The notes beneath the pieces were generated by a model. It was not told the DNA's origin. It saw only the letters and a program-made list of their open reading frames with translations, and did no database searches. From assembly GCA_947502265.1 (NCBI GenBank), contig CANMZB010000001.1, positions 310,001 to 374,000 of the forward strand: DNA of 64,000 nucleotides. Direction: 5' to 3'. Shown here piece after piece: positions 7,371 to 55,897 of this stretch (positions within the stretch are counted from its first letter, which is position 1; each line of letters begins with the position of its first letter). A program made the translations under genes and the position numbers. This DNA is from an uncultured Sulfitobacter sp. Its GTDB lineage: Bacteria > Pseudomonadota > Alphaproteobacteria > Rhodobacterales > Rhodobacteraceae.

Positions 7371-8308
7371 GCGCGAGCGACAACGACATCGACGACAGCG
7401 CCGCCCCGCTGATCGAGCATCTGGCGGAACTGCGCACGCGGCTGATCCGCGCGGTTCTGGCGTTTATTGTGGGAATGATTATCTGCTTCAGTTTCGGCAG
7501 CGCGATCCTTGATTTCCTGTTGGTGCCGATCGAAAACACGATGCGCAATCTGGGCAACCCGAATCCTGTGATGCAGTATACTGCGCCGCAGGAGTATTTC
7601 TTTACCCTCATCCGTATTTCGATGGTGGGCGGGCTTGCCATCAGCTTTCCTGTGATTGCACATGAGCTGTGGCGGTTTGTGGCACCTGGGCTGTACCGCA
7701 ATGAAAAAAGCGCGTTTCTGCCGTTTCTGATTGCCTCGCCGGTGTTGTTTTTCATTGGTGCGTCCTTTGCGCATTATATTGTGGTGCCGCTGGCGATGCA
7801 GTTCTTCCTTGGCTTCTCGGATGCGGCGTCGATTTTGACGGCGCTGGTGGTCGAGGGCGATGCGCGCGAGTCCGGCATCGACATCGTGTTTCAGGGTAAA
7901 GTGAACGAAAGCCTTGATATTACGCTGAAAATGATCGTCGCCTTTGGTTTGTGCTTTCAGTTGCCGGTGCTTTTGACGTTGATGGGCAAGGCCGGATTGG
8001 TGACCGCCGAGGGGCTAGGCAATGTGCGTAAATATGCGATGGTCGGCATCCTGTTGCTGGCTGCTTTGGTCACACCACCGGATGTTGTGACACAGCTGAT
8101 CCTGTTTGTGGTGGTTTACGGGCTGTATGAAGTTTCGATCTTTCTGGTGAGCCGTGTGGACGCCAAGCGCGAGGCGCAGTTGCGTGCCGATGGCTATTAT
8201 GACGACGAGGAAGATTTCGACGCGATGGCCGAAGAGATGGATCACGAAGAGCCGATCGTTGAAGACCTCGATGGTGAAGAATCTGATGTTGAGGACCGCG
8301 ATAAATGA
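7367..8308 (+). CDS. tatC: Sec-independent translocase subunit TatC
   Basis: A 313-residue multispanning receptor for twin-arginine signal peptides. The N-terminal [12 protein letters not shown] motif and about six membrane helices are present, including the region [22 protein letters not shown]. It is longer than the usual 250-270 residues because of an acidic C-terminal tail rich in Asp and Glu from about residue 275. The stop overlaps the start of the following DUF815 ATPase by 4 bases, extending the operon to four genes. Confidence 0.95.
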
Positions 8309-9147
8309 CTTGCGACCCTATGGAACGGATTGCGGCGGCGCTGGAGCGGATGGCTCCGGCGCCGCTGGAGGCCCCTGATTTCGACGCAGCGGGCGCGTTT
8401 GTCTGGCACACCGGACCGGACCGGTTGGAGCCGGTGGCAGAGGTGTCGCGCGTCGACATCGGGCTTTTGGTGGGGATCGAGCGGTCGCGCGAGACGTTGT
8501 TGAAGAATACCGTGCAGTTTGCGGCGGGATTACCGGCGAACAACGCCCTGCTTTGGGGCGCGCGCGGGATGGGGAAATCAAGCCTTGTCAAGGCAGTGCA
8601 TAGCGCTGTTCAGATCGACTTTCCGGACCTTAAAGTTGTGGAATTGCAGCGCGAGGATTTGCCGTCGGTGGGCCGTTTGCTGAACCTCCTGTGCGGGTCT
8701 GACGCACGGTTTATCCTGTTTTGCGACGATCTGAGCTTTGGCCACGATGACGCGCATTACAAGTCACTGAAGGCGGTTCTGGATGGCGGGATCGAGGGGC
8801 GGCCGGACAATGTGGTGCTGTACGCGACCTCCAACCGGCGCCATCTGATGCCACGCGACATGATCGAGAACGAGCGCGGATCGGCGATCAATCCGGCAGA
8901 GGCGGTGGAAGAAAAGGTTTCTCTTTCGGATCGGTTCGGGCTGTGGTTGGGGTTCCACGCTTGCGATCAGGACCAGTATCTGGCGATGATCCGTGGCTAT
9001 TGCGACGCGCATGGTGTCACGATTGACGACGGGACATTGCGCGCGGAAGCTGTTGAGTGGCAGGCCACACGCGGCAGCCGCTCGGGGCGGGTTGCATGGC
9101 AGTATTTCACCGATCTGGCAGGGCGCAAGGGTGTAACCTTGAGCTGA
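8305..9147 (+). CDS. DUF815-family AAA ATPase
   Basis: A 280-residue P-loop ATPase. Walker A is GARGMGKSS (85-93) and the Walker B-like segment is FILFCDDLSF (about 137-145), where CDD replaces the usual hhhhDE. SNRRHL provides the sensor-1 Asn. DUF815 proteins are conserved in bacteria, but their role is not established. The 4-base overlap with tatC shows operon membership, yet a functional link to Tat export is only inference. Confidence 0.88.
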   Translation: MTCDPMERIAAALERMAPAPLEAPDFDAAGAFVWHTGPDRLEPVAEVSRVDIGLLVGIERSRETLLKNTVQFAAGLPANNALLWGARGMGKSSLVKAVHSAVQIDFPDLKVVELQREDLPSVGRLLNLLCGSDARFILFCDDLSFGHDDAHYKSLKAVLDGGIEGRPDNVVLYATSNRRHLMPRDMIENERGSAINPAEAVEEKVSLSDRFGLWLGFHACDQDQYLAMIRGYCDAHGVTIDDGTLRAEAVEWQATRGSRSGRVAWQYFTDLAGRKGVTLS

Positions 9148-26607: not shown

Positions 26608-27663
26608 TTAAAGCTGGTGGTCGTTTTCCTGACGGGCCAGATTGGCATGCTGCACCATGAAACGAGCAGCCTCGCGCGGCACCGGCAGGGACGCAGGAGC
26701 CATCAGCAGGCGGCCAAAGAGCGCGCGGAAGGGTTCAAGCCGGAGCAGCGTTTCAAAACGGGCCTGTCGCCATGAAACGGCCTGTGCATGAAGCTTTGAC
26801 AACGTTTTGTCTGCGCGCAGATCGGCCAGCGCGGCGTTGCGCGGGCCTGCAAGGGATTGGATGCTGGTATCGGTGTCGGTGTTGAAGTTCCGTTCGATCC
26901 AGTAGTCGAGGCCAAGCAGGTGATCGCTGTGCACAGCACGTCCGCGATCGGCTTTGAGCACAAAACTTTCCATCGCGCCGAGCGGATAGTGGTTGAGCTG
27001 GACAAGGCCATAATTGTCCTTTCCGAAGTTGGAAAATATGCGCTTTTTCCGGAACTGATCGGGCAGGGGATCGCCGTTGCCGTCAAACCAACGGGCGCGC
27101 TCCAGCTTTTGTGGATCAGGATTGCGGGGGCGGTGCACGCCCGGTTTGCGGTAGGTGCCATCATTGCGGTAGAGCGTCTTGAACATCGCGGCGCGCCATG
27201 GCCAGTGCATCACCGCAGGCGCGCAGCGTTTGAAGGTCTCAAGCACCGGCGCGTCCTGATAACGGACTTGCCCAGCCGCGCCAAAAAGACGCCATGTCAG
27301 GGTGATCGCGGTCGCATTGGGAAGCGCCTTGTGCAGAGCGCCCAGCGTATGATCGCCGCAATGGATATTGACGAATTCGTCGATGTCGAGCGGCAGAATC
27401 CAGTCGGCTTGGTTGACCGAAACGTGTTTGGCGGCGGCTTTGAGGGCTGTGAACTGGATGCCGCCCTTGTCAAAGGGGCCATCATTGCGCACATGGGTGA
27501 GCAGCCCCATTTCGGCCAGCCGGTCGAGCATTGTATCGGTGCCGTCCGCGCAATCGTTTGAGAACACAAGAAAATCGGTGAACCCCACAGCGCGGTGATG
27601 GGCCAGCCATTCGAGCAGGAACGCGCCTTCGTTGCGCACGCACAGGATCGCCAGATGGCGCAT
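26608..27663 (-). CDS. Glycosyltransferase family 2 (Glyco_tranf_2_4 type)
   Basis: A 351-residue predicted glycosyltransferase. The N-terminal Rossmann-like strand MRHLAILCVRNEGAFLLEWL is the sugar-nucleotide entry of this clade, the FSNDCADGT motif follows, and the metal-binding DIDEF is at residues 93-97. C-terminal LNHYPLGAMESF is shared with the other two transferases of the operon. The ATG (27661-27663) overlaps the stop of the upstream fusion gene by one base (TGATG), implying coupled translation; the longer upstream frame is a shadow. No signal peptide or membrane helix is seen, so it acts in the cytoplasm. The acceptor and donor are unknown. Confidence 0.85.
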   Translation of the reverse strand: MRHLAILCVRNEGAFLLEWLAHHRAVGFTDFLVFSNDCADGTDTMLDRLAEMGLLTHVRNDGPFDKGGIQFTALKAAAKHVSVNQADWILPLDIDEFVNIHCGDHTLGALHKALPNATAITLTWRLFGAAGQVRYQDAPVLETFKRCAPAVMHWPWRAAMFKTLYRNDGTYRKPGVHRPRNPDPQKLERARWFDGNGDPLPDQFRKKRIFSNFGKDNYGLVQLNHYPLGAMESFVLKADRGRAVHSDHLLGLDYWIERNFNTDTDTSIQSLAGPRNAALADLRADKTLSKLHAQAVSWRQARFETLLRLEPFRALFGRLLMAPASLPVPREAARFMVQHANLARQENDHQL

Positions 27664-30050
27664 CAGCTTTCCATGTCCAGCGCCAGCGCATACGCCACGC
27701 GCTCTGTCTCGTTCAACTTGACCTTGAGTGCTTCGGTATAGAGGTCCGCGAATTCCGGGTTCTGGTGCAGCTCGTCCGCCTTGGCGCGGTGCCAGCGGAT
27801 GCCGTTTTGATGCCATTCGCACAGCGTTTCATCCTGCATTAACCGATCATATTCAAGGCGCAGGCGCGGGATGTTGCGTTTGATCGTGATGTCGCGGAAA
27901 TCGGACCAATCCATGCGAATCCAGTAGTTGATCCCGATGGAGCGATCCACATGCAGGGCGCGACCACGCTGGCGCTTGATCAGGAAGCTTTCTGTGGAGC
28001 GCAGCGCGTAGTGATTGAGTTGTAACAGGTCATAACCGATGGATTTCTTGGAAGAACGCCAGCCGTTCTCGGCAGCTTCTTTGGTCATGTCGCGGCCCGA
28101 TCCGTTGACCCATTTGACGCGGGATTTGAACGCCGGGTCCAACTTGTTGGGTCGGTGGCAGGAGATTTTTTCGTAGGCACCGATGTTCCTGAACATCGTT
28201 TTAAAACCCCAGACGGTGTGCGGCTTGGGGCAGTATTTTGGCGCGCAGCCGTCGAATTGGTCAATTACGAAATCATCGGCCAGATCGGTCACACCGTTAT
28301 GCCCGAACAGCCGCCATGTCATCGCAACATTCGTCGCGTCCGGCACCGCATCAAGAAAATCCTGCACCGTGCCATTGCCACAGCGCACGTTCATGAATTC
28401 ATCCACGTCGATGTGGATGATCCAGTCTGCGTTTTGGATCACCGGTTCTTTCAAGGCCTGGTTGAGCGCATATTGCTGGGGAGAATTGCCCTTCCAGCCG
28501 TCGTTATTGCGGTGCTCAAGGATGCCCATCGTTTGCAACCGGTCAAGGATTTCGGTGGTGCCATCCTCGCAACCGTTTGTATAGATAAGGAAGTTATCCA
28601 CACCCATCGCGCGGTGATAGGCGACCCATTCGACGATATAGGGCGCTTCGTTCTTCATGCAGCCGACGATTACATTGCCGCTGCTCCCCTTTTGCAACGT
28701 TCGCGGGGGGATCGTGGTATAGGCGGTGGCGCGCGCCTCTTCGTTCACCGAACCCATTCTATTGTGCGGGGCAAAGGAGGATTTGCGCAACTTTTCATAG
28801 TTTTGCACCGCCAGTGGCGGCATGATCGCGCGCGCGGCATCGCTTGGCCCACCGGGGGCGTCATCGTGTTTGCGGTAAGCGATAGCGTGCGGCGCTTTAA
28901 CGGTATTATCGGCCAGTTTATCCAGATCGGCAGCTTTGGTTTGCTGCTCTTGCTGTGTTGCTTGGTCGATCCGCCACATGAAGCCCAGAAGGTATTGCGA
29001 GGCGCGAAAGCCGTAAAGCGGATCGGCCTCGGCCCATGTCCCTTTGGCGCGCGGGGCTTTGAAAGTGTCGGGGTTCAGTGCGGGGTGGTCGTGCAGCAGT
29101 TGCTTCAGGCCCGGCGCGAAATGTTTGGCGATGGGGTGCAGCGTCGCCAGATCCATTGGCGGGCCGTCCACCGCGATTTCCTGCACCAGCGTGCGCCACA
29201 ACTGGCGGGGCAGGATGCGCTTGCGAGCGGCCAGCACCCTGAGGATCAGCGCATTGAGCTGCCGCCCCCGCGCAAGGCTGGCGGCAGGGGGGGGGGCGGG
29301 ATGCGTGACTGCCTGTGCGCGCCCGATGGTTTGTTTGATGTCGAACGCGGCACAAATCTCGTTCGTTACGGTCTCGGCCGCGAACACGTGTGCGTCATAG
29401 CTGCGCAGCGATACGGTGCCTGTGCCAAATCCGGCCTCCCAAAACGCGACCAGCGCGGGCAGGTCGATCCAATGGGCAGGAGCCTGCGTTTCGGCAAAGA
29501 CACCAGCGGCAGGATCAATGGGCGGGGCTGCATCCAGCGCGTTTTGCCACCAGTTGTCGCCGCCCGCCAGATCCAGTTCGGCTTGCAAGGTGATCCCGCG
29601 CCCTTCGAGGATTTGTTCGGCGTAACGACGCGCGAGCATGGCGGCGGGATGATCGACATGGGCGATGATGCGGATATCGTCCGACAGCGGCGCAAGCATC
29701 GCGTGCAGGCGCGCCACCTCGTCCGGGGTGCGCAGGCTTGTGCCCAGTTGCGCACACGACAGGATGAGCGTGTCGGGCCGGTGCTGTGCCACTTCACGCG
29801 CAAGATCATCGGCGACAGTGGCGCGCAAGATCGCCTGTTTTTGGGGCGGGATGTAACCGCGGTTGTAGCGCAGCGGATCGACATGGCCGGGGTCCGTCAC
29901 GGCCATAAAAAGGCGCGTGTGGTTTTTGTTGCCGGGGCTGCGCGCAAACACGATGCCCTTGCCGGTCAACTGCTCGCGCTTGGCCGCGAGAACCGATTGC
30001 AGGCGCGCGGCACCGGTTTCTTCCAGCCCGATGTGCAGGTAAATCCGCAT
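27663..30050 (-). CDS. Fusion protein: degenerate sulfotransferase-like N-terminus and glycosyltransferase 2 C-terminus
   Basis: A 795-residue protein with two parts. Residues 1-240 resemble the sulfotransferase fold seen in Roseobacter surface-polysaccharide genes, but the PAPS loop, normally PKTGTT, reads LEETGAA (residues 9-15), so binding is doubtful. A helical linker (about 255-440) follows. From about 455, GNVIVGCMKNEAPYIVEW, TNGCEDGT and DVDEF (about 547) form a GT2 domain of the same type as its neighbours. The ATG at 30050 overlaps the upstream sulfotransferase stop (TGATG). A run of ten Cs (29287-29296 on the plus strand as G) lies at about codon 252, before the GT domain, and could slip. 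The biochemical role is not known. Confidence 0.78.
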   Translation of the reverse strand: MRIYLHIGLEETGAARLQSVLAAKREQLTGKGIVFARSPGNKNHTRLFMAVTDPGHVDPLRYNRGYIPPQKQAILRATVADDLAREVAQHRPDTLILSCAQLGTSLRTPDEVARLHAMLAPLSDDIRIIAHVDHPAAMLARRYAEQILEGRGITLQAELDLAGGDNWWQNALDAAPPIDPAAGVFAETQAPAHWIDLPALVAFWEAGFGTGTVSLRSYDAHVFAAETVTNEICAAFDIKQTIGRAQAVTHPAPPPAASLARGRQLNALILRVLAARKRILPRQLWRTLVQEIAVDGPPMDLATLHPIAKHFAPGLKQLLHDHPALNPDTFKAPRAKGTWAEADPLYGFRASQYLLGFMWRIDQATQQEQQTKAADLDKLADNTVKAPHAIAYRKHDDAPGGPSDAARAIMPPLAVQNYEKLRKSSFAPHNRMGSVNEEARATAYTTIPPRTLQKGSSGNVIVGCMKNEAPYIVEWVAYHRAMGVDNFLIYTNGCEDGTTEILDRLQTMGILEHRNNDGWKGNSPQQYALNQALKEPVIQNADWIIHIDVDEFMNVRCGNGTVQDFLDAVPDATNVAMTWRLFGHNGVTDLADDFVIDQFDGCAPKYCPKPHTVWGFKTMFRNIGAYEKISCHRPNKLDPAFKSRVKWVNGSGRDMTKEAAENGWRSSKKSIGYDLLQLNHYALRSTESFLIKRQRGRALHVDRSIGINYWIRMDWSDFRDITIKRNIPRLRLEYDRLMQDETLCEWHQNGIRWHRAKADELHQNPEFADLYTEALKVKLNETERVAYALALDMES
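29287..29296 (-). repeat. Homopolymer tract of ten C (coding strand)
   Basis: Ten consecutive G on the plus strand, reading as C10 in the codons for Ala-Pro-Pro-Pro of the fusion gene. A one-base slip would truncate the protein before its glycosyltransferase domain. Such tracts are contingency loci in other bacteria; here it is only a candidate. Confidence 0.6.
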
Positions 30051-30679
30051 CAGTTTACCTTGTTTTGATGGTTTGCGTTGGCGCGGCCCCACCACGTCAG
30101 ATCAACGCCCAGATGCGCGCCCACGGCGCGTTGTGCGTCCGCGTCCGAGACATCAAAAGCCAGAAATGCCGGATCGCCGGCAAACAGCGCATCAAGATGG
30201 GCGTAATGGCCATCGATCCACTGCACCCGCTCTTTGCTGGTTTCGCCGTACCCTTCGGGCAGACCGGGAATGTCGGAGGTGGGCAGCCGCTCGATCCCCA
30301 GATCGGACCATGCCAGCATGGATTGCGACACCTCCCAGCTGTCGCGGCGCGAGGCGAGAAACCGGACATCGGGGTGGTGTTTTCGAATTGCGTCGATCAG
30401 CGCGAAATCCATCTGCGGCCACAGCGATTTGCCTTTGCGCAGGCAGCTCAGTTCGGTCAGAGCTGTGAAATCGTCAAACGCGGCCCCCGGGTCGCCGGTG
30501 AGGAAATAACCGCGATAAAGGACATCAGCCACGAAAGCATCGGCAAGATCGGGGTTGTTGGTCTGGCGCGCGCGGATGCGGTGATCTGCGACGCGGTAAC
30601 CGGCGATTTTTAACGCACGGGCCAGCGTTGTGGTGCCTGTTTTAGGCAGGCCAAGATTGACAACTTTGAGCGTGCTCAC
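30050..30679 (-). CDS. Sulfotransferase-family protein
   Basis: A 209-residue predicted PAPS-dependent sulfotransferase. The 5'-phosphosulfate loop PKTGTTTL is intact (residues 12-19), unlike in the downstream fusion. RRDSWEVSQSML is a likely 3'-phosphate-binding segment. The size fits the short Sulfotransfer_4-like group. It would add sulfate to a sugar or small acceptor made by the neighbouring glycosyltransferases. Its start overlaps the upstream gene by 4 bases (ATGA) and its stop overlaps the fusion start. Confidence 0.8.
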   Translation of the reverse strand: MSTLKVVNLGLPKTGTTTLARALKIAGYRVADHRIRARQTNNPDLADAFVADVLYRGYFLTGDPGAAFDDFTALTELSCLRKGKSLWPQMDFALIDAIRKHHPDVRFLASRRDSWEVSQSMLAWSDLGIERLPTSDIPGLPEGYGETSKERVQWIDGHYAHLDALFAGDPAFLAFDVSDADAQRAVGAHLGVDLTWWGRANANHQNKVN

Positions 30680-31728
30680 GACGGGTTTTCCAGAAGGCCA
30701 AGATCGCGCAGCATGCTTTCCTCCTGCGGGGGAAGCTTGGAGGCACTCAGGAGTTGCGCGCGCATCGCCCGGTATCGGGGAGACTCAAGCAGCGCATCGC
30801 GGCGCGCGACGTGCGCGGCCACGCAAGCCTCATGCAAAGCGCCAACATTCCCCTGTGATTTCAGGGCTGCTATACGCTCTTGTACGGCAGGCAAATAGCG
30901 GTGGATCGAGGTATCCTGCCATGCGGGGTCATTGCGCTCACGCCAATAGGTGTCGTCAAAATCGCGGTTCTCGCGGTTCACATCGCCGCGGTCGTTTTTG
31001 ACCAGATAGCTGTCGAGGCTGCGCAGCGCATAGTGATTAAGCGTGGCATACCCCCGCGCGCCAGCGGCAGGAAAGCGGCGGATACGGCGCGGGTTGGCCG
31101 CCACCAGAAAGCGGTGCGGAACGGGGCGCCCTGAACCGTCGGTCCACGAGGGCCGCGCGTTCTTTTTGACCTTTGGTTTGAAAAACGGGCGATGCGCGCC
31201 ATAATATTGCAAGGGAAAATCGCTGCGCACCAACGACTTCACCTCGATCGCCGCCTCCCCACACCACAGATCGGGGTTCTGGCTGTGCGTGAATTGTTCG
31301 ATCACAGGGCGGTCCACGAATCGCTCGATATCGCCGTTGGCGAAAAACTGGAAGTTCAGGCTGATGGTTTGAGGATTGCCGCAGGCTTCAATGAGGGCGG
31401 CAAAGCTGTGATCACCCACATGAATGTTGGGGAATTCGTCCACATCCGCGATCCAGACCCAATCGGCAGTGCGCACGACATCGCGCTTTTTGGCATCTTT
31501 GAGCGCCTCCATCTGGTAATTGCGCCCCTCTGCAGGGTTGGGCAGATGCATTACAGGGCCCAATTGCGCCAACGCATCCAGAAGCGTATCGGTGCCATCG
31601 TCGCAATCGTTGGAATAAAACAGGAAATCAGTCACGCCGATTTGTTGATGAAAAGCGATCCACTCCAACAGGAATGGCCCTTCATTCTTGACGCAAGTCA
31701 CGGCAGTTATTTTCAATTCATCCGCCAT
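30676..31728 (-). CDS. Glycosyltransferase family 2 (Glyco_tranf_2_4 type)
   Basis: A 350-residue transferase, first gene of the four-gene unit. ITAVTCVKNEGPFLLEWI starts the fold, YSNDCDDGTDTLL follows, and DVDEF lies at residues 95-99. LNHYALRSLDSYLVKNDRG is the C-terminal motif shared with the two other transferases. It has no membrane segment. The start is an ATG with the hydrophobic strand right after it. Whether the operon makes a capsule, exopolysaccharide or lipopolysaccharide decoration cannot be read from the window; no polymerase, flippase or export gene is linked. Confidence 0.85.
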   Translation of the reverse strand: MADELKITAVTCVKNEGPFLLEWIAFHQQIGVTDFLFYSNDCDDGTDTLLDALAQLGPVMHLPNPAEGRNYQMEALKDAKKRDVVRTADWVWIADVDEFPNIHVGDHSFAALIEACGNPQTISLNFQFFANGDIERFVDRPVIEQFTHSQNPDLWCGEAAIEVKSLVRSDFPLQYYGAHRPFFKPKVKKNARPSWTDGSGRPVPHRFLVAANPRRIRRFPAAGARGYATLNHYALRSLDSYLVKNDRGDVNRENRDFDDTYWRERNDPAWQDTSIHRYLPAVQERIAALKSQGNVGALHEACVAAHVARRDALLESPRYRAMRAQLLSASKLPPQEESMLRDLGLLENPS

Positions 31729-42999: not shown

Positions 43000-43044
43000 G
43001 CCGCGACCGAGACTCTACGCATATCTAGAACGGACTTGAAAGAC

Positions 43045-44073
43045 ATGACCTACAACATCGCAATCCTTGGCGCTTCCGGCTATACAGGTGCCGAATTAGT
43101 CCGGCTGATATCCGGCCATTCGTCGATGCAAATCAAAGCATTGGGCGGCAACTCTAAAGCGGGTCAAAGCATGGCAGAGGTGTTTCCGCATCTGCGCCAT
43201 CTGGACTTGCCCGACCTTATCACGATGGACGAAATTGATTTCTCCGCGATTGATCTTTGCTTTTGTGCCTTGCCGCACAAAACCTCTCAGGAGGTCATTT
43301 CCAAGCTGCCCAAAGACCTCAAGATCGTGGATCTTTCGGCGGATTTCCGGCTGCGCGATCCGGCGGATTATGAAAAGTGGTATGGTAACCCCCATGCGGC
43401 GCTGGAGCAGCAGGCCGAGGCGGTTTACGGGCTGACAGAGTTTTACCGCGACGAAATTCGCAGTGCGCGACTGGTGGCGGGTACCGGCTGTAACGCGGCG
43501 ACAGGGCAGTTTGCGCTGCGCCCGTTGATCGGGGCGGGGGTGATTGATCTGGATGAAATTATCCTTGATCTTAAATGTGCGGTGTCGGGGGCCGGGCGGG
43601 CGCTGAAGGAAAACCTGCTGCACGCGGAATTGTCCGAAGGCTATCACGCCTATAGCGTTGGCGGCACACACCGGCATCTGGGCGAGTTCGATCAGGAGTT
43701 CTCAAAGCTTGCCGGACGACCCGTGAAGGTTCAGTTCACACCGCATCTGATCCCGGCGAACCGTGGCATTCTGGCGACCGTTTACGTTAAAGGTGACGCC
43801 CAAGCTATTCATGATACCTTGAAAAAGGCTTATGAGAATGAGCCGTTCATCGAGGTTCTTCCCCTTGGCGAAGCGCCCAGTACACGGCATGTTCGCGGGT
43901 CCAATTTTTGCCACATCGGCGTGGTTGCCGACCGGATTGACGGGCGCGCGATTGTAATTGCGGCACTGGATAACCTGACAAAAGGGTCGTCGGGTCAGGC
44001 GTTGCAAAATGCCAATCTGATGTTAGATATTGAAGAGACAGAGGGCCTGATGATGGCACCTCTCTTTCCGTGA
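43045..44073 (+). CDS. argC: N-acetyl-gamma-glutamyl-phosphate reductase
   Basis: A 342-residue NADPH enzyme in arginine synthesis. The dinucleotide loop GASGYTGAE is at 9-17, and the catalytic Cys149 is in [22 protein letters not shown] and the NFCHIG segment near the C-terminus are family signatures. The ATG at 43045 is used; an in-frame TTG nine bases earlier is possible. It is followed by ccmE after 7 bases. Confidence 0.95.
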
Positions 44074-44080
44074 GGATCTG

Positions 44081-44524
44081 ATGAAAAGCCTGAAAAAGCA
44101 GCGCCGCATCCAGTTGATTTCTGTAGCCGTCGTGGCGTTGATCGCGGCGACGGGGCTTATTGGCTATGGATTGCGTGACGGGATCAACTTTTTCCGCGCG
44201 CCATCGCAAGTGTTGGCAGAACCTCCCGGCCCGTCCGAGGTTTTCCGAATCGGCGGTCTGGTGGAAGAAGGCACGTTGCGACGCGGCGAGGGCGAAGAGA
44301 TCAGCTTTTCCGTGACGGACGGCGGTGCAAGCGTTCCTGTTGTCTTTGCAGGGGTGTTGCCCGATCTTTTTGAAGAAAATCAGGGGATGGTCGGCACCGG
44401 AAGTTACATAAACGGCACTTTCCAAGCTTCTGAAATTCTTGCAAAACATGACGAGACGTACATGCCGAAAGAAGTTATCGACGCGTTGAAGGATCAAGGC
44501 GTTTACGTAGCTCCCGAAGGCTGA
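44081..44524 (+). CDS. ccmE: Cytochrome c maturation heme chaperone CcmE
   Basis: A 147-residue periplasmic heme chaperone anchored by an N-terminal helix (about 11-30). The heme-binding His123 and the Tyr127 of KHDETY are present, in the family pattern H-x-x-x-Y. The OB-fold beta strands lie between about 50 and 115. It begins the ccm stretch that is interrupted by the endolysin/holin pair before ccmF. Confidence 0.94.
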   Translation: MKSLKKQRRIQLISVAVVALIAATGLIGYGLRDGINFFRAPSQVLAEPPGPSEVFRIGGLVEEGTLRRGEGEEISFSVTDGGASVPVVFAGVLPDLFEENQGMVGTGSYINGTFQASEILAKHDETYMPKEVIDALKDQGVYVAPEG

Positions 44525-44595
44525 CACCGCGCGCTGTGGTGAGCGGGCGTTAACCCGTTTCAGGCTTGCTTACCTCTGATCTGGAGGTAGGTGCT

Positions 44596-45207
44596 ATGCA
44601 AACTGTACGACAAATCGCCCAAGACATCGTCGCCCGTGAAGGGGGCTTTGTGAATGATCCCGATGATCCGGGCGGGGCCACGAATTTTGGCGTTACGATC
44701 CATACCATGCGACGGCTGGGTCTGGATCTGGATGCTGACGGGGCGATTACGGCGCAGGATGTGCGTCAACTGAGCCGCGCGCAAGCCATTGATATCTTTC
44801 TCGAACATTACTTCGAGCGCCCGTTGGTCGCCAAATTGCCGCGCGCGTTGCAGGCCAGCGTATTTGATATGTATGTCAACGCGGGCAGCAACGCCGTGAA
44901 GATACTCCAGCGGCTGTTGAGGCAGATGGGCTTCGAGGTGATTGTTGATGGCGCATTGGGGCCGCAGAGCTTTGCTGCGGTGCGGGCGGCGTATGAGGCG
45001 GCACCCGATCATCTGGTTAACGCCTACGGCATCGCCCGGAGAAACTATTATTTCCGGCTTGCCGACGGGCGCATTGCCAGCCGCAAATACGCCCGCACAT
45101 TAGCAGGCGGCAAAGGCGGCTGGATCAAACGGGCGGAGGAATTTATCGCGCCCGAATATCATATGAGCACAGCACAATTCGAGCAAAGGACTGCACAATG
45201 GGGTTGA
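44596..45207 (+). CDS. GTA-type endolysin (GH108 N-acetylmuramidase with peptidoglycan-binding domain)
   Basis: A 203-residue lysozyme-like enzyme. The catalytic Glu15 lies in REGGFVNDPDDPGGATNFGVT, the GH108 signature, and a C-terminal helical part (about 95-175) is the PG-binding_3 module. It has no signal peptide, so it depends on a holin, which is the next gene with a 10-base overlap. GGAGG precedes the ATG at 44596. It matches the endolysin of the gene transfer agent lysis pair known from Rhodobacter capsulatus (rcc00555/rcc00556), which in Roseobacters sits outside the structural GTA cluster. No phage structural gene is adjacent. Confidence 0.88.
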   Translation: MQTVRQIAQDIVAREGGFVNDPDDPGGATNFGVTIHTMRRLGLDLDADGAITAQDVRQLSRAQAIDIFLEHYFERPLVAKLPRALQASVFDMYVNAGSNAVKILQRLLRQMGFEVIVDGALGPQSFAAVRAAYEAAPDHLVNAYGIARRNYYFRLADGRIASRKYARTLAGGKGGWIKRAEEFIAPEYHMSTAQFEQRTAQWG

Positions 45208-45770
45208 TAGAGCGGATATTGGGCATGGCATTCGGGAATGGCCGCAATGTTGTGCGCGACACTGTAGAGATTTTTCGCGAGAATACCGAAGCCGGAGCCG
45301 AGCGCGGTGCCACGGTGCAGCGCGAGGCGATGGGCCAGTACGGCGCGGAATTCGGCAGACCTGCGGAGGGCGGTTTCGACCGCTTTATGGACGGGTTGAA
45401 CCGTCTGCCGCGCCCTGCGCTTGCGCTTGGGACGCTGGGGCTGTTTGTCTCGGCGATGGTGGCCCCTTTGTGGTTCGCGCAAAGGATGCAAGGCATCGCC
45501 CTTGTCCCGGAGCCGTTATGGTGGCTGTTGGGGGTGATCGTGTCATTCTATTTTGGCGCGCGCCATCAGGTAAAGGCCCAGCAGTTCCAGCGCAGCATCG
45601 TGGATACGGCACAGCATGTGCCGCAAGTCATTGAGAATATGAAAGAGATCGGCAAGCTGCGCGCGACATCTCCGGGTGTTGCCGATCCCGGACCTGATGT
45701 GCGGCTGAGTGCGCAGGCCCTGCGGGCCGAAGCAAATCCGGCGCTTGAGGCGTGGCGTGCGGTACGGTGA
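45198..45770 (+). CDS. GTA-type holin (3-TM family)
   Basis: A 190-residue membrane protein of the GTA_holin_3TM type. Two clear hydrophobic segments (about residues 73-93 and 102-122) follow an amphipathic, glycine-rich N-terminus; a third weak segment may make up the named three. A cytoplasmic helical tail follows. It would form the pores that let the preceding endolysin reach the wall. It overlaps that gene by 10 bases. Expression is presumably tied to GTA production in a subset of cells. Confidence 0.82.
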   Translation: MGLIERILGMAFGNGRNVVRDTVEIFRENTEAGAERGATVQREAMGQYGAEFGRPAEGGFDRFMDGLNRLPRPALALGTLGLFVSAMVAPLWFAQRMQGIALVPEPLWWLLGVIVSFYFGARHQVKAQQFQRSIVDTAQHVPQVIENMKEIGKLRATSPGVADPGPDVRLSAQALRAEANPALEAWRAVR

Positions 45771-45838
45771 GAGGACTGCGGCTGTTTGACCATGCGAATC
45801 CGATTGGAACGTGCCGGTAATAAGAGTATATTTCCGCC

Positions 45839-47806
45839 ATGATTACAGAGCTCGGACATTTCGCCCTTTTGCTCGCCTTTGGCGTGGCCCTGATTCAAAT
45901 GGTGGTGCCTATGGTGGGCGCTGCCAAGGGGTGGCCGGGCTGGATGGCTGTAGCCGAACCGGCGGCGGGGATTCAATTGGTTCTTGTCGGGGCTGCTTTT
46001 GGCGCGTTGATGTGGGCGTTCATCACGTCTGACTTCAGCCTTGCGGTGGTGGTCTCCAATAGCCACTCGATGAAGCCGATGCTGTATAAAATCAGCGGAA
46101 CATGGGGCAATCACGAAGGTTCCATGCTTTTGTGGGTGTTCATTGTGGCGCTCTTTGGTGCGATGGCTGCGTGGTTTGGCGGGCAATTGCCGGCCTCCTT
46201 GCGCGCACGGGTGCTGAGCGTTCAGGCCGCGATTGCTGTCGCTTTCCTTGCGTTTATCCTGCTTACGTCAAATCCGTTTGCGCGCCTTGCGGTGCCGCCG
46301 TTTGATGGTCAGGATCTCAACCCGCTGCTGCAAGACCCCGGTTTGGCGTTCCATCCGCCGTTTCTGTATCTGGGATATGTCGGCCTAAGCATGGCGTTCA
46401 GTTTTGCAGTCGCGGCCCTGATCGAAGGGCGCGTGGATGCGGCGTGGGGCCGGTGGGTGCGCCCGTGGACCCTTGCCGCGTGGATTTTCCTGACCATCGG
46501 TATCGCGCTCGGCTCTTGGTGGGCCTATTACGAACTGGGCTGGGGCGGTTTCTGGTTCTGGGATCCGGTTGAAAACGCAAGCTTTATGCCTTGGCTGCTG
46601 GCCGCAGCGCTTTTGCATTCTGCCATTGTCGTAGAAAAGCGCGAGAGCCTGAAAAGCTGGACAATTCTTCTGGCGATCCTCGCTTTCGGCTTCTCGTTGA
46701 TCGGTACGTTTATTGTGCGCTCCGGGCTGCTGACATCGGTTCACGCCTTTGCAAATGATCCGGAGCGGGGCGTTTTCATCCTGCTGATCATGGCGGTTTT
46801 CATGGGTGGGGCGCTGGTGCTGTTTGCTTTGCGCGCGGGCGCTTTGGAGGCCAAGGGCGTGTTCAGCATTGCAAGTCGCGAAAGCGCGCTGGTGCTGAAC
46901 AACCTGCTGCTGGCTGTTGCGTGTTTCGTGGTGTTTGTCGGGACGATGTGGCCCTTGCTGGCCGAGATGTTCTTTGATCGTAAACTCAGCGTCGGGCCAC
47001 CGTTCTTTAACGCAGCCTTCACACCTTTCATGATAGCGCTCGGTATCGTTCTTCCGGTGGGCTCGGCCTTGCCCTGGAAGCGTGCCAATCTGGCGCGCGC
47101 GCTGTGGCCGTTGCGCTATGCTTTTGCCCTGTCTCTGGCCATTGGCGGGCTTGTCTGGGCGATGCAAACGGGCCGTAGCCTGATCGGGCCTGTCGGGATG
47201 TTCCTTGCCGCATGGATATTGATGGGCACGGTTGTCGATCTGATGCAACGCACGGGGCGCGGGCCAAACCGGCTGCGCCGTCTGGTACGGTTGCCGCGCG
47301 CCGATTGGGGCAAGGCCACGGCACATTCGGGCCTTGGTGTCACCATGATGGGCATTGCGGGGCTGACTGCATGGACAGTTGAGGACATTCAGGTGGCGCA
47401 GATCGACGTTCCGTTCGAAGTGGCGGGGTACGAGATGACCCTGCGGAGCGTGACACAGGGGAACGGGCCGAATTACGTTGTCACTACCGGCGAAATCGAC
47501 GTGTCGAAAGAAGGGAAATTCATCGCAACGCTTGCGCCTGAGAAACGGTTTTATCCAGTCGCGCAAATGCCAACGACCGAAGCCGCTATCCACCAGAACC
47601 TTGCCCGCGATCTATACCTTGTCATCGGCGATGAACAGACGAACGGGGGCTGGGCGATCCGTACCTATATCAAGGTGATGACCAACTGGATATGGATCGG
47701 TTGCGGGTTGATGTCCCTTGGCGGGCTTCTGAGCCTGAGCGATCGTCGTTTCCGCGTTGCCGGGGGGGCGCGCAAGCCACGTCAACAACCGGTGCCGGCA
47801 GAATGA
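45839..47806 (+). CDS. ccmF: Cytochrome c heme lyase subunit CcmF
   Basis: A 655-residue polytopic membrane protein that transfers heme from CcmE to apocytochrome c. The WWD domain reads ELGWGGFWFWDPVENASFMPWL (around residue 238), and conserved histidines occur near HSMKP, FHPPFLY and VHAFA. About fifteen membrane helices are expected. It overlaps ccmH by 4 bases. The endolysin/holin pair lies upstream, between ccmE and this gene. Confidence 0.96.
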   Translation: MITELGHFALLLAFGVALIQMVVPMVGAAKGWPGWMAVAEPAAGIQLVLVGAAFGALMWAFITSDFSLAVVVSNSHSMKPMLYKISGTWGNHEGSMLLWVFIVALFGAMAAWFGGQLPASLRARVLSVQAAIAVAFLAFILLTSNPFARLAVPPFDGQDLNPLLQDPGLAFHPPFLYLGYVGLSMAFSFAVAALIEGRVDAAWGRWVRPWTLAAWIFLTIGIALGSWWAYYELGWGGFWFWDPVENASFMPWLLAAALLHSAIVVEKRESLKSWTILLAILAFGFSLIGTFIVRSGLLTSVHAFANDPERGVFILLIMAVFMGGALVLFALRAGALEAKGVFSIASRESALVLNNLLLAVACFVVFVGTMWPLLAEMFFDRKLSVGPPFFNAAFTPFMIALGIVLPVGSALPWKRANLARALWPLRYAFALSLAIGGLVWAMQTGRSLIGPVGMFLAAWILMGTVVDLMQRTGRGPNRLRRLVRLPRADWGKATAHSGLGVTMMGIAGLTAWTVEDIQVAQIDVPFEVAGYEMTLRSVTQGNGPNYVVTTGEIDVSKEGKFIATLAPEKRFYPVAQMPTTEAAIHQNLARDLYLVIGDEQTNGGWAIRTYIKVMTNWIWIGCGLMSLGGLLSLSDRRFRVAGGARKPRQQPVPAE

Positions 47807-48255
47807 AACGGCTTTTCCTGATCCTGATGCTGCTGGCCAGCCCTTTGACCGCGGTTCAGCCCGACGAAATTCTGGATGATCCGGTGCTGGAATCGCGCGC
47901 GCGGGAATTGTCCAAAGGCCTGCGCTGTCTTGTGTGCCGCAACGAGAGCATCGACGAGAGCAATGCGTCGCTGGCCCGTGACCTGCGCATCTTGTTGCGC
48001 GACCGTTTGGTGGCGGGTGACACAGACGAGGAAGCCGTCGGATTTATCGTGTCCCGCTATGGCGAATATGTTTTGCTGAACCCGCCAATCGGCGGTGCCA
48101 ACTGGATTCTGTGGGGCGCAGGCCCGTTTATGCTGTTACTGGCGGGCGGCTTGGGGGCGGTGTATCTGCGCGGGCGCAGCCGCGCCGCGGCACCGCAGGA
48201 TGCAGGTTTGAGCGACGATGAGGCTGCGCGCCTTCGCGAGATCCTGAACAAGTAA
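47803..48255 (+). CDS. ccmH: Cytochrome c maturation protein CcmH (CycL)
   Basis: A 150-residue periplasmic thiol reductase that keeps the CxxCH of apocytochrome c reduced. It has a signal sequence, the LRCLVCRNESI motif (Cys42, Cys45), and one C-terminal membrane helix (about 105-125). The ATG lies in the ATGA overlap with ccmF. ccmG and ccmI are not in the window. Confidence 0.94.
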   Translation: MKRLFLILMLLASPLTAVQPDEILDDPVLESRARELSKGLRCLVCRNESIDESNASLARDLRILLRDRLVAGDTDEEAVGFIVSRYGEYVLLNPPIGGANWILWGAGPFMLLLAGGLGAVYLRGRSRAAAPQDAGLSDDEAARLREILNK

Positions 48256-52985: not shown

Positions 52986-53112
52986 ATCAAGATCCTTTCG
53001 GGCGGTCAGCAAGACGTGGCGAGGTTAACACTCAGGTCATGTTTACCATTTGGTAACCCATCGCAGCGTAATTTCAGGCCTGTTTATCCAGTGCAGCGAA
53101 CGGGGGCAAGCG

Positions 53113-55179
53113 ATGGTAATCGCGCGCGGTTTCACCACAATGATGCGCGCCCAGCGGGGCGCGTTATTTGGCTGGGTGCCGGTTTGTCTGGCGATTGGCA
53201 TCGGCAGCTATTTCCAGCTGAATTGGGAGCCGTCTTTGATGATGCTGGCGCGTGTCGCTGTATTGGCTCTGATCGCGGCAGGGCTGGCGCGCGCGCTGCC
53301 CGAAAGCGGGCGGCCATTTGCGGTGGCGACCATGCTGATTTGTGTTGGCGCGCTCCTTGCGGGTTTCCGGGCGCATCATGTCGCAGCACCTGTGCTGAAA
53401 TTCCGCTACTATGGCGGAATCGAAGGGCGGATCATCGCGATTGATCGCAGCCAGTCGGATGCGTTGCGTCTCACGCTTGATCGTGTGGTGCTGGAGCGTG
53501 TTCCGCCGGACCGGACGCCAACGCGGGTGCGCCTCTCGCTGCACGGGGATCGCGCGTTTGACATCACCCCCGCACCCGGCCTGCGGGTGATGGTGACGGG
53601 GCATCTGTCGCCACCTTCAGGACCGGTCGAGCCGGGCGGCTTCGACTTCCAGCGTCACGCATGGTTTGTCCGCCTTGGTGCTGTCGGGTACGCCCGCGCG
53701 CCGCTTATGGGGGTGTCGGAGGCTGTGGAAGGCCACGCCGGACTGGCCGTGCTCAGGCTGCGCATGGCGGCGTCACAGCGGATTCAGGATGTGCTGCCCG
53801 GCGACAGGGGCGGTTTTGCCGCAGCCATTACCACGGGTGATCGCTCTGCCATTTCACAAGGGGCGCTGGATGCTCTGCGCGCAAGCAATCTCGCGCATCT
53901 TCTTGCCATTTCGGGCCTGCACATGGGGTTGATGTCGGGGGTGGTTTTTGCCGTGTTGAGGATTGCGATTGCATTGGTGCCGCCGCTTGCCCTGCGCGTG
54001 CCTGCGCGCAGCATTGCTGCGGCGGGCGCGTTGATCGTGGCGGCGGGTTATCTTGCGTTGTCTGGCGGTAATGTCGCTACGCAGCGGGCGTTTGTGATGG
54101 TGGCGGTGGCGCTGTGCGCGCTGATGATCGGGCGGCGCGCGATCAGCCTGCGGGCGGTTGCGATTGCCGCGACCATCGTTCTGGTGCTGAGGCCCGAGGC
54201 GTTGATGGGGCCGGGATTCCAGATGTCTTTTGCCGCGACAACTGCCCTCGTGGCCGTGTTCGGTGTGCTGCGCGAGCGCGAAATCCCCTTGGGGGCGAAA
54301 TGGTTGCGGCCCGTGCTTAGCGTCGTGATTTCCTCGGCTGTTGCGGGGTTTGCCACAGCCCCAATTGCCGCCGCGCATTTCAACGCCATCGCGCAGTACG
54401 GTTTGCTTGCCAATCTCCTGTCGGTGCCGCTGATGGGAGTTTTGGTGATTCCGGCGGCTGTTGCGGCGGCGGTTCTTGCGCCGATCGGGCTAGAGGCTGT
54501 GGGTCTCTGGGTGATGGGGCTTGGCGTGCGCTGGATTTTGGGCGTGGCACATTTTGTCGCAGAACTGCCGCAGGCGCGCAGCTATGTCGTGGGGCCTGAT
54601 CCTGTGGTGCTGCCGTTGCTGGCTTTGGGCTTTCTCACGGTCCTTCTCTGGCAAGGGCGCGCGCGCTGGACCGGTTTTGCGGCGATGGTGGCGGCTTTTT
54701 TTCTTTGGGGTCAGACACATCGCCCGGATATTTTGATCGCGGACAGCGCGGCGCTGGTGGGGGTAATGACGCCAGATGGCCGTGCGCTGAGCAAGGATCG
54801 TGCGGGGGGATTCATCGCGCGCAACTGGCTTGAAAATGATGGCGATGGAAAGCCACAGATCGCAGCGGCTGCGCGCTGGAGCGGAGTCACCGATATTATT
54901 CATTTGTCAGGCAAGCGCGCAGTGGCGGCGTTCAAAGGATGTGTCAAAGGGCAGATTGTGGTCACGACTGTCGCGCTCGGGCGCGAGTTGCCATGTGTAG
55001 TGCATGATCCTGACACGCTGCGCCACACTGGTGCGCTGGCCTACCGGATCGGGCCGGAGGGGGCTTTCCTTCTGGACACTGCCCGCTCCGAATCAGGAGA
55101 CCGGTTGTGGACCCATTGGCCACCCGAGGACGCGCAGCCTCGTTATGTTGCGCGTCTCAACGACAAAGCGGATCAGTAA
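53113..55179 (+). CDS. comEC: DNA uptake channel protein ComEC/Rec2
   Basis: A 688-residue inner-membrane protein that imports single-stranded DNA. The competence domain has [19 protein letters not shown] and about ten helices. The N-terminal DUF4131 region is present. The C-terminal part (from about 535) lacks the HxHxDH zinc motif of full ComEC proteins and may be a degenerate metallo-beta-lactamase domain. ATG at 53113 is preferred over a TTG at 53050. ComEC is needed by recipient cells for gene transfer agent DNA in R. capsulatus, which fits the endolysin/holin pair nearby. It converges on lexA with a 7-base overlap. Confidence 0.92.
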
Positions 55180-55865
55180 GAGCGGATCAACCCGACAAGC
55201 CGACCTTGCACCTTGACCTGGTCGGCGGGGAACACGCGGGTTTCATAGGCGGGATTTGCCGCTTCGAGCGCGATTGAACTGCCACGCCGCTTGAAACGTT
55301 TCAGGGTCGCTTCCTGATCGTCCACCAAAGCCACAACAATATCGCCGTCGTCGGCCACAACCGTTTCGCGGATTACCACGACGTCGCCGTCGTTGATCCC
55401 CGCCTCGATCATCGAATCGCCTTTGACTTCAAGCGCGTAATGCGCCCCGGCCCCCGCCAGCATTGCGTTGGGCACAGTGACCCCGTGCGAGCGCTGGTTG
55501 ATCGCTTCGATAGGGACACCGGCGGCGATTTTACCCATTACCGGCAGTTCGGTAGCTTCGATCGTTCTGAGCGGCAGTGCGCCTGCGGGGGGGGCTGTGT
55601 CAGGCCGATCGCCATCAATAACCTTCGGGGTGAAGCCGTTTCCGCCCATGCTGTCGGGCAGTTTGACCACCTCGATGGCGCGCGCGCGATGCGCCAGACG
55701 GCGGATGAACCCCCGCTCTTCGAGCGCAGTAATCAGCCGGTGAATTCCTGACTTGGACCGCAGGTCAAGGGCCACCTTCATTTCGTCGAAGCTGGGCGGC
55801 ACACCGTCGCGCTGCACCCGTTTGTGAATGAATGCCAGCAGATCGAGTTGCTTTTTGGTCAGCAT
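55173..55865 (-). CDS. lexA: SOS repressor LexA
   Basis: A 230-residue repressor. The N-terminal winged helix includes [19 protein letters not shown] (38-56). The self-cleavage site is Ala115-Gly116 (KIAAGVP), and the catalytic pair is Ser151 (GDSM) and Lys189. A linker contains an 8-C run. A box GTTC-N7-GTTC lies 33-47 bases upstream of the ATG at 55865, as expected for autoregulation. Confidence 0.95.
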
Positions 55866-55897
55866 AGCACGTCCTTTATCCCGATTTATCATGTTTT

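Follow-up and report, generated by a model that had tools for sequence, protein, structure and literature searches.

The endolysin and holin genes lying between ccmE and ccmF in an uncultured Sulfitobacter sp. appear to be controlled separately and twice over, by a CtrA-box-like promoter and, in read-through messages, by an RNA hairpin that would mask the ribosome site. We think it probable that this lysis cassette is insulated on both sides, with promoter and Shine-Dalgarno (SD) hairpin silencing RNA that reads through from upstream, while RNA made from the lysis promoter itself is translated; the start of that RNA and its translation are predicted.

The DNA analysed (the window) is a stretch of 64,000 nucleotides, contig C1 310001-374000 of a genome of 4.55 Mb in 109 contigs. 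On its plus strand argC, ccmE, endolysin, holin, ccmF and ccmH follow one another in a single row:

43036-44073, plus strand: argC, a housekeeping gene with Pfam semialdehyde dehydrogenase domains; the read-through stretch begins here
44081-44524, plus strand: ccmE (Pfam CcmE, 102.3 bits)
44596-45207, plus strand: GH108 endolysin, rcc00555-type (Pfam Glyco_hydro_108, 88.2 bits, and PG_binding_3, 82.3 bits; PHROG 315 endolysin)
45198-45770, plus strand: GTA_holin_3TM holin, rcc00556-type, by family match only (Pfam GTA_holin_3TM, 93 bits against a cut-off of 24.8)
45839-47806, plus strand: ccmF (Pfam CcmF_C and Cytochrom_C_asm)
47692-48255, plus strand: ccmH (Pfam CcmH over residues 43-185; the true start is probably downstream of the ORF start)

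The preliminary description had placed an overlapping GH108 endolysin and gene transfer agent (GTA) holin on one strand between ccmE and ccmF, and Pfam, PHROG and the coordinates confirm it. Both the gene identities and the operon setting are demonstrated at the level of sequence. The stop of the endolysin and the start of the holin overlap by 10 nt, and 71 nt separate the ccmE stop from the endolysin ATG. We place the endolysin start at ATG 44596, which is conserved among relatives; the mechanical ORF opens earlier, at the in-frame TTG 44566. The endolysin is the single GH108 match of the genome. The absence of phage structural genes nearby, also claimed at the outset, holds for the 25 other window proteins scanned with Pfam (20 of them at E values up to 1e-8; one of the 25 has no family match), smaller ORFs being outside the scan; with no phage structural family among these neighbours, a prophage remnant was rejected. 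The data support an RcGTA-type lysis pair within the argC-ccm locus, lytic function itself not being shown here. ComEC-type genes have been linked to GTA uptake or control. A competence-protein gene of this type (53050-55179, plus strand) and lexA (55173-55892, minus strand) lie 7-10 kb downstream of the lysis cassette, possibly by chance. LexA has been linked to GTA control (PMC9638019; this and all other articles cited were available in part only). Elsewhere in the window (26608-31728, minus strand) there is a glycosyltransferase cluster, with Glyco_tranf_2_4 domains in three of four successive ORFs, the ORF at 30050-30679 being outside the scan.

Does this genome carry a GTA for which the pair could work? 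Absence of a GTA cluster would have refuted the GTA reading, and an RcGTA-like head-tail cluster is present on contig C7 (134475-148348, minus strand), comprising terminase, portal, prohead protease, capsid, tail tube, DUF2460, a Gp84-like hub and GTA_TIM/Rcc01698_C; ten of its proteins were scanned and eight gave a family match. A DUF6456 gene, the label given to gafA (PMC9765227), is found at C8:6707-7117. That GTA lysis genes can lie outside the structural cluster, as the preliminary description noted for Rhodobacter capsulatus, is known from the literature, and the genome studied here has the same separation. GTA_TIM matches occur twice on C7, at 136185-137078 within the head-tail cluster and at 7434-8330. 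The latter belongs to a second, unannotated cluster (G000 C7:5703-14493, L150) with an 805-aa ORF, about 129 kb from the GTA cluster, with which it shares three homologues (GTA_TIM and two further tail-gene homologues); we tentatively read it as a phage relative that has tail genes of the RcGTA type, rather than as a second GTA.

Is the ccm setting a peculiarity of this genome? The preliminary description had presented it as something seen here; it is real in the sequence, but it is usual in the family, and R. capsulatus is no exception. The holin family is present in 142 of 149 genomes of the order Rhodobacterales. Among 146 loci fetched, 30 of them only 3.3 kb long, endolysin and holin stand together on the same strand in 143, the other three being weak secondary holin matches. 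A search for six genes around each placed ccmE before the endolysin in 124/143, ccmF after the holin in 111/143, and both in 99/143. Of 125 loci (window counted), 93 have no more than 120 nt separating ccmE from the endolysin. Overlaps of 1, 4, 7 or 10 nt between the end of the endolysin gene and the beginning of the holin gene are found in 125 of 143. Among named loci, the order argC-ccmE-endolysin-holin recurs in other genera and in R. capsulatus DSM 1710 and SP108 (L174, L207), where rcc00555/rcc00556 of RcGTA represent the same two families in the same order; these two loci were retrieved with a degenerate argC pattern taken from a forward primer, and an exact-match scan with the primer core for strain SB1003 gave nothing. 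The two arrangements differ downstream: ccmF directly follows the holin in the window, whereas it was not found within 2.8-3.0 kb downstream of the holin in R. capsulatus. We found neither the ccm setting of the lysis genes nor the hairpin in the open literature searched.

Some loci lack the cassette. In a Rhodobacteraceae MAG (L159) and a Fluviibacterium (L170), both named loci, argC-ccmE-ccmF is free of lysis genes and the ccmE-ccmF spacing is 24 and 16 nt, an uninterrupted arrangement that could be either ancestral or restored. The co-occurrence of GTA_TIM and holin is loose: among the 80 of 149 genomes tested for this, three lack a GTA_TIM match despite having the holin, and all seven holin-less genomes retain a GTA_TIM match (partial in G110), one of the seven having a GH108 match. 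Loci were obtained from six of these seven, G013 being left out for want of a CcmE match. In G042 (L260) shortened, divergent pieces of endolysin and holin remain between ccmE and ccmF; in G085 (L263) the holin alone is missing; in G145 (L259) both genes are gone and a ccmF promoter like that of other loci is kept. These three are apparent stages of cassette loss, and the remaining three of the six loci gave no match. G081, G141 and G013 have a full-length GTA_TIM domain match without a holin or GH108 match. Outside the order the holin family is patchy, with matches in 58 of 240 genomes of the class, three of those 58 being Rhodobacteraceae. A tblastn search with the window proteins did not find argC, ccmE, ccmF or ccmH in 27 non-family class loci (30 fetched, each at most 3.4 kb), a search that distant homologues or longer distances could escape.

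The preliminary description had reasoned that read-through from upstream could reach lethal lysis genes, so that they need separate control. What could provide it? Exactly there, between ccmE and the endolysin, lies a conserved candidate safeguard, predicted from the following elements:

44550-44555, plus strand: TTAACC, second half of a CtrA-box-like element whose first half is not recognisable in the window
44561-44570, plus strand: -10-like region (CAGGCT at 44561-44566; at the usual spacing CTTGCT at 44565-44570, without the A)
44568-44577, plus strand: 5' arm of the hairpin (GCTTACCTCT), by RNA folding
44583-44592, plus strand: 3' arm of the hairpin, containing the Shine-Dalgarno GGAGG (44583-44587), by RNA folding

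The CtrA box is TTAA-N7-TTAACC, and by this consensus the TTAACC before the endolysin is presumably a CtrA half-site. Reducing 144 endolysin upstream regions at 85% identity left 134, to which 22 named loci were added, giving 156 non-redundant loci. TTAAC occurs between -70 and -40 of the endolysin ATG in 105 of the 134 (100 shuffles: mean 2.4, maximum 6). When the regions are aligned on TTAA (122/134), a -10-like element xAxxxT emerges 15 nt downstream (A in 64%, T in 80%). Across the 156 loci TTAA is present in 143 and lacking within range in 13; 115 of the 143 have xAxxxT at +13 to +17 relative to where TTAA begins (200 shuffles: mean 26.9, maximum 37), which demonstrates a conserved promoter-like motif. 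There is only a faint trace of a degenerate TTAA 11 nt before the conserved one, at least three of four bases matching in 21 of 143 loci, with 16 and 10 at the neighbouring distances and 1-6 elsewhere. In the window, as in one relative of the same genus (L059), the CAGGCT hexamer is shifted 4 nt towards the box compared with the usual place, and transcription is predicted, no more than that, to start at about 44573-44577. Judged by its motif alone, the window contains a putative lysis promoter with a CtrA half-site; there are no binding data. The assignment is supported by published work on R. capsulatus, in which binding of GafA to the promoter of the lysis cassette has been described along with a need for both GafA and CtrA (PMC6363796), CtrA half-sites have been reported in that promoter (PMC9638019), and the lysis genes are assigned to the co-expression module of the GTA (PMC4158056). 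The DSM 1710 locus has TTAACC, CACCCT at +15 and a hairpin over the SD (z -2.22, 7 of 200 shuffles); its lysis mRNA is predicted to start some 18 nt upstream of the ATG.

Taken alone, the hairpin of the window is only moderately unusual, with z -1.62 (13 of 200 dinucleotide shuffles as stable) and z -2.08 against mononucleotide shuffles. An intrinsic terminator of ccmE was rejected as an identity for it, the terminator scan of 43900-46000 listing none between ccmE and the endolysin. The comparison across loci demonstrates SD folding beyond both shuffles and controls. At many endolysin starts folding predicts a stem in which the -10 region (5' arm) pairs with the Shine-Dalgarno (3' arm). The median fold z for -45 to +6 of the endolysin start is -2.23 (n=134), against -0.25 for ccmF (106), -0.19 for ccmE (117), +0.32 for the holin (123), +0.38 for argC (71) and +0.58 for ccmH (13); the SD zone has a pairing probability above 0.7 at 60% of endolysin starts versus 7-20% in the five control start sets. 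After clustering at 80% endolysin identity, 85 of 103 ccmE-linked clusters have a median z below -1 (mononucleotide shuffles). Strong hairpins over the endolysin ribosome site are also seen in second endolysin-holin copies behind GemA (Mu-like prophage) in L143 (G038) and L146 (G072).

How does the hairpin relate to the promoter? Loci with a more distant promoter also have a 5' arm further from the ATG, the start predicted from TTAA alone correlating with the end of the 5' arm derived from folding alone (Spearman 0.63, n=141). The two are at most 3 nt apart in 92 of 141 loci, compared with a mean of 50.9 and a maximum of 75 in 2000 permutations, so that the position of the predicted hairpin demonstrably tracks the promoter. 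The predicted start falls strictly between the arms of the MFE stem in 75 of 141 loci; 42 of the 141 have under 80% of their 5' arm upstream of it. In the window, by folding, an RNA starting at 44577 lacks this hairpin, and a start at 44573 would leave five bases of the 5' arm. The predicted cost of opening the SD is 9.3 kcal/mol in read-through RNA versus 4.0 in promoter RNA in the window, and the in silico medians over 143 loci are 9.8 versus 3.3 kcal/mol. The difference reaches at least 4 kcal/mol in 99 of the 143; in control starts cut at -23 it does so in 8/106, 11/117, 8/123 and 5/71, with a median change of 0.1-0.6. The arms vary widely in sequence between species yet remain complementary. 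In a swap test the own 5' part ranked among the best 5% in 55 of 156 loci (controls 11/106, 4/117, 4/123 and 3/71, or 3-10%), own arms pairing at a mean of -15.5 and other species' arms at a mean of -11.3 kcal/mol; on these sequences the arms demonstrably fit their own partner better than a relative's. Covariation in a five-sequence alignment of close relatives lacked significance, its score being equalled or exceeded by 56 of 500 shuffles. Single changes in 22 close pairs break pairing 52 times and keep it 29 times, double changes keep it in 5 of 13, the chance level, and RNAalifold on two genera found almost nothing. These results weigh against the proposed hairpin without deciding the matter, because the stems slide in register between species.

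On the other side of the cassette, ccmF seems to have its own promoter:

45804-45832, plus strand: ccmF promoter (TTGGAA-17-TATATT), ending six bases ahead of the ATG; the mRNA is probably leaderless

Over 103 loci, ATTGG-like and TATA-like columns end about 6 bases before the ccmF ATG, and there are no Shine-Dalgarno-like columns; the promoter score reaches at least 9 of 12 in 25 of 106 loci versus 3 after shuffling. A promoter flush with the ATG together with the missing Shine-Dalgarno suggests, from sequence, a leaderless ccmF mRNA where the lysis cassette separates ccmF from ccmE. In L159 and L170, which have no lysis genes, ccmF follows ccmE after 16-24 nt and has a purine-rich ribosome site instead. 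With a promoter of its own, ccmF need not rely on transcription through a silent cassette.

From these elements the following switch can be proposed. RNA entering from argC-ccmE would carry both arms, fold, bury the Shine-Dalgarno and be poorly translated; the holin would be silenced with it through translational coupling to the endolysin, since its start overlaps the endolysin stop. RNA from the lysis promoter would begin at or near the end of the 5' arm, could not form the hairpin and would be translated. Lysis would then be restricted to cells running the late programme of the GTA (CtrA, GafA), and downstream ccmF would keep its own promoter. The start site, the use of CtrA and GafA in this species, the translational effect and the holin coupling are inferences. 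There is a known precedent for such a design. Gene e of phage T4 (lysozyme), as well as soc, I-TevI, segB and mobE, has its SD sequestered in long upstream transcripts, as predicted here; late promoters just upstream of gene e give RNA without the 5' part, and the structure is reported to cut lysozyme synthesis 100-fold (PMC3014915). T4 homing endonucleases use a like SD-hairpin switch with a dedicated late promoter (PMC2988022). By prediction the anatomy matches that of the T4 gene e switch in the buried SD and may match it in a promoter whose RNA lacks the 5' arm, an analogy for which we claim no homology and which has no experimental demonstration. In contrast to T4, the element here is a domesticated bacterial one, its promoter is CtrA-box-like and not a T4 late promoter, and it would guard against read-through from a host operon.

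How does hairpin strength vary with what lies upstream? The hairpin weakens (z rises) with the distance to ccmE (Spearman 0.43, p ~1e-7): the median z is -2.68 for gaps of at most 130 nt (n=116), -1.59 for larger gaps (n=22) and -0.94 where no ccmE was placed (n=18). The last group includes L184 despite a ccmE about 0.6 kb upstream; its z is -2.7, and dropping it would sharpen the contrast. Between ccmE and the promoter, 22 of 138 ccmE-linked loci have an intrinsic terminator (20 shuffles: mean 1.7, maximum 4), and in these the hairpin is weaker (z -1.45 vs -2.71, p 0.014, without phylogenetic correction). We sorted the 17 loci without ccmE by their Pfam-identified neighbours into seven with an upstream gene on the opposite strand, six with a co-directional one, two Mu-like prophage copies and two uncalled. 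Among the seven, L020, a short locus, was assigned from its genus-mates, and L065 and L091 have their identified neighbour at distances of 539 and 444 nt. The median z is 0.1 for the seven opposite-strand loci versus -1.7 for the six with another co-directional gene (one-sided p 0.026), and the hairpin is weak or absent in six of the seven. There are exceptions: L034 has an opposite-strand neighbour yet a z of -1.6, and L106 a co-directional one yet no hairpin (z 0.9). This comparison also lacks phylogenetic correction, and the seven loci come from few lineages. Together, the nine opposite-strand and uncalled loci represent five lineages (80% endolysin identity), and in every one of these the median hairpin falls short of the ccmE-linked median in strength.

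On balance we lean towards a family-wide RNA fail-safe of the T4-lysozyme type, which would sense the origin of a transcript and whose folding would be selected against accidental killing of the host; on the same reading, it is the weakening, loss or replacement of the guard by a terminator where read-through cannot occur that points to selection on the folding. Could the hairpin be real and transcription start further upstream, making it a general brake on all lysis mRNA, relieved by temperature, a small RNA or a protein? The evidence from folding is silent on where transcription starts, and in the 42 of 141 loci mentioned above RNA from the predicted start would still include over a fifth of the 5' arm, which leaves room for this option. 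We consider it unlikely, because the position of the 5' arm follows that of the predicted start, because this arm overlaps the -10-like element, a stretch absent from any RNA made from that promoter, and because a general brake does not predict the weaker hairpins seen where read-through is blocked or unlikely.

A slightly less likely explanation still is that nothing has been selected, the pyrimidine-rich -10 (CAGCCTT) being complementary by composition to the purine-rich Shine-Dalgarno. Arms swapped in from other species do still pair, at the mean of -11.3 kcal/mol, and base-level covariation gives no significant signal, as such a by-product would have it; it is countered by the stronger pairing of own arms, with its excess over controls in the best 5%, and by the dependence of hairpin strength on gap, terminator and neighbour. 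An inverted repeat might also be a DNA operator rather than an RNA element, for instance for GafA, which is dimeric and binds promoter DNA containing -10, -35 and start (PMC9638019). We give this very little credence: the 3' arm coincides with the SD, and arm sequences that differ widely between species and stay complementary are unlike a sequence-specific operator. An operator-only reading was rejected on account of this variability.

What would the proposed fail-safe mean for the biology of these bacteria? Lysis is the lethal step of a GTA, and its control decides the cost of GTA production; in R. capsulatus the lysis genes are reported to be required for GTA release and to lyse the cell (PMC3423380, PMC6209664). 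The corresponding lysis genes of Dinoroseobacter shibae are Dshi_1756/1757 (PMC6473078). Dedicated control of lysis is likewise found in the related Caulobacter GTA, where LypABC is responsible, though by different proteins: according to the available part of that report, its authors found no holin-endolysin homologues (PMC13236601). The codon bias of ccmE has been reported to follow that of GTA genes, and the neighbouring lysis genes go unmentioned in the part of that article available (PMC9765227); the neighbourhood described here is a reason to revisit this bias. The new part is the control region of the lysis pair, promoter and hairpin together. If the proposal is true, it would explain how lethal genes persist within a transcribed housekeeping operon across a bacterial family, and an element domesticated by its host would have retained a phage-style sensor of transcript origin.
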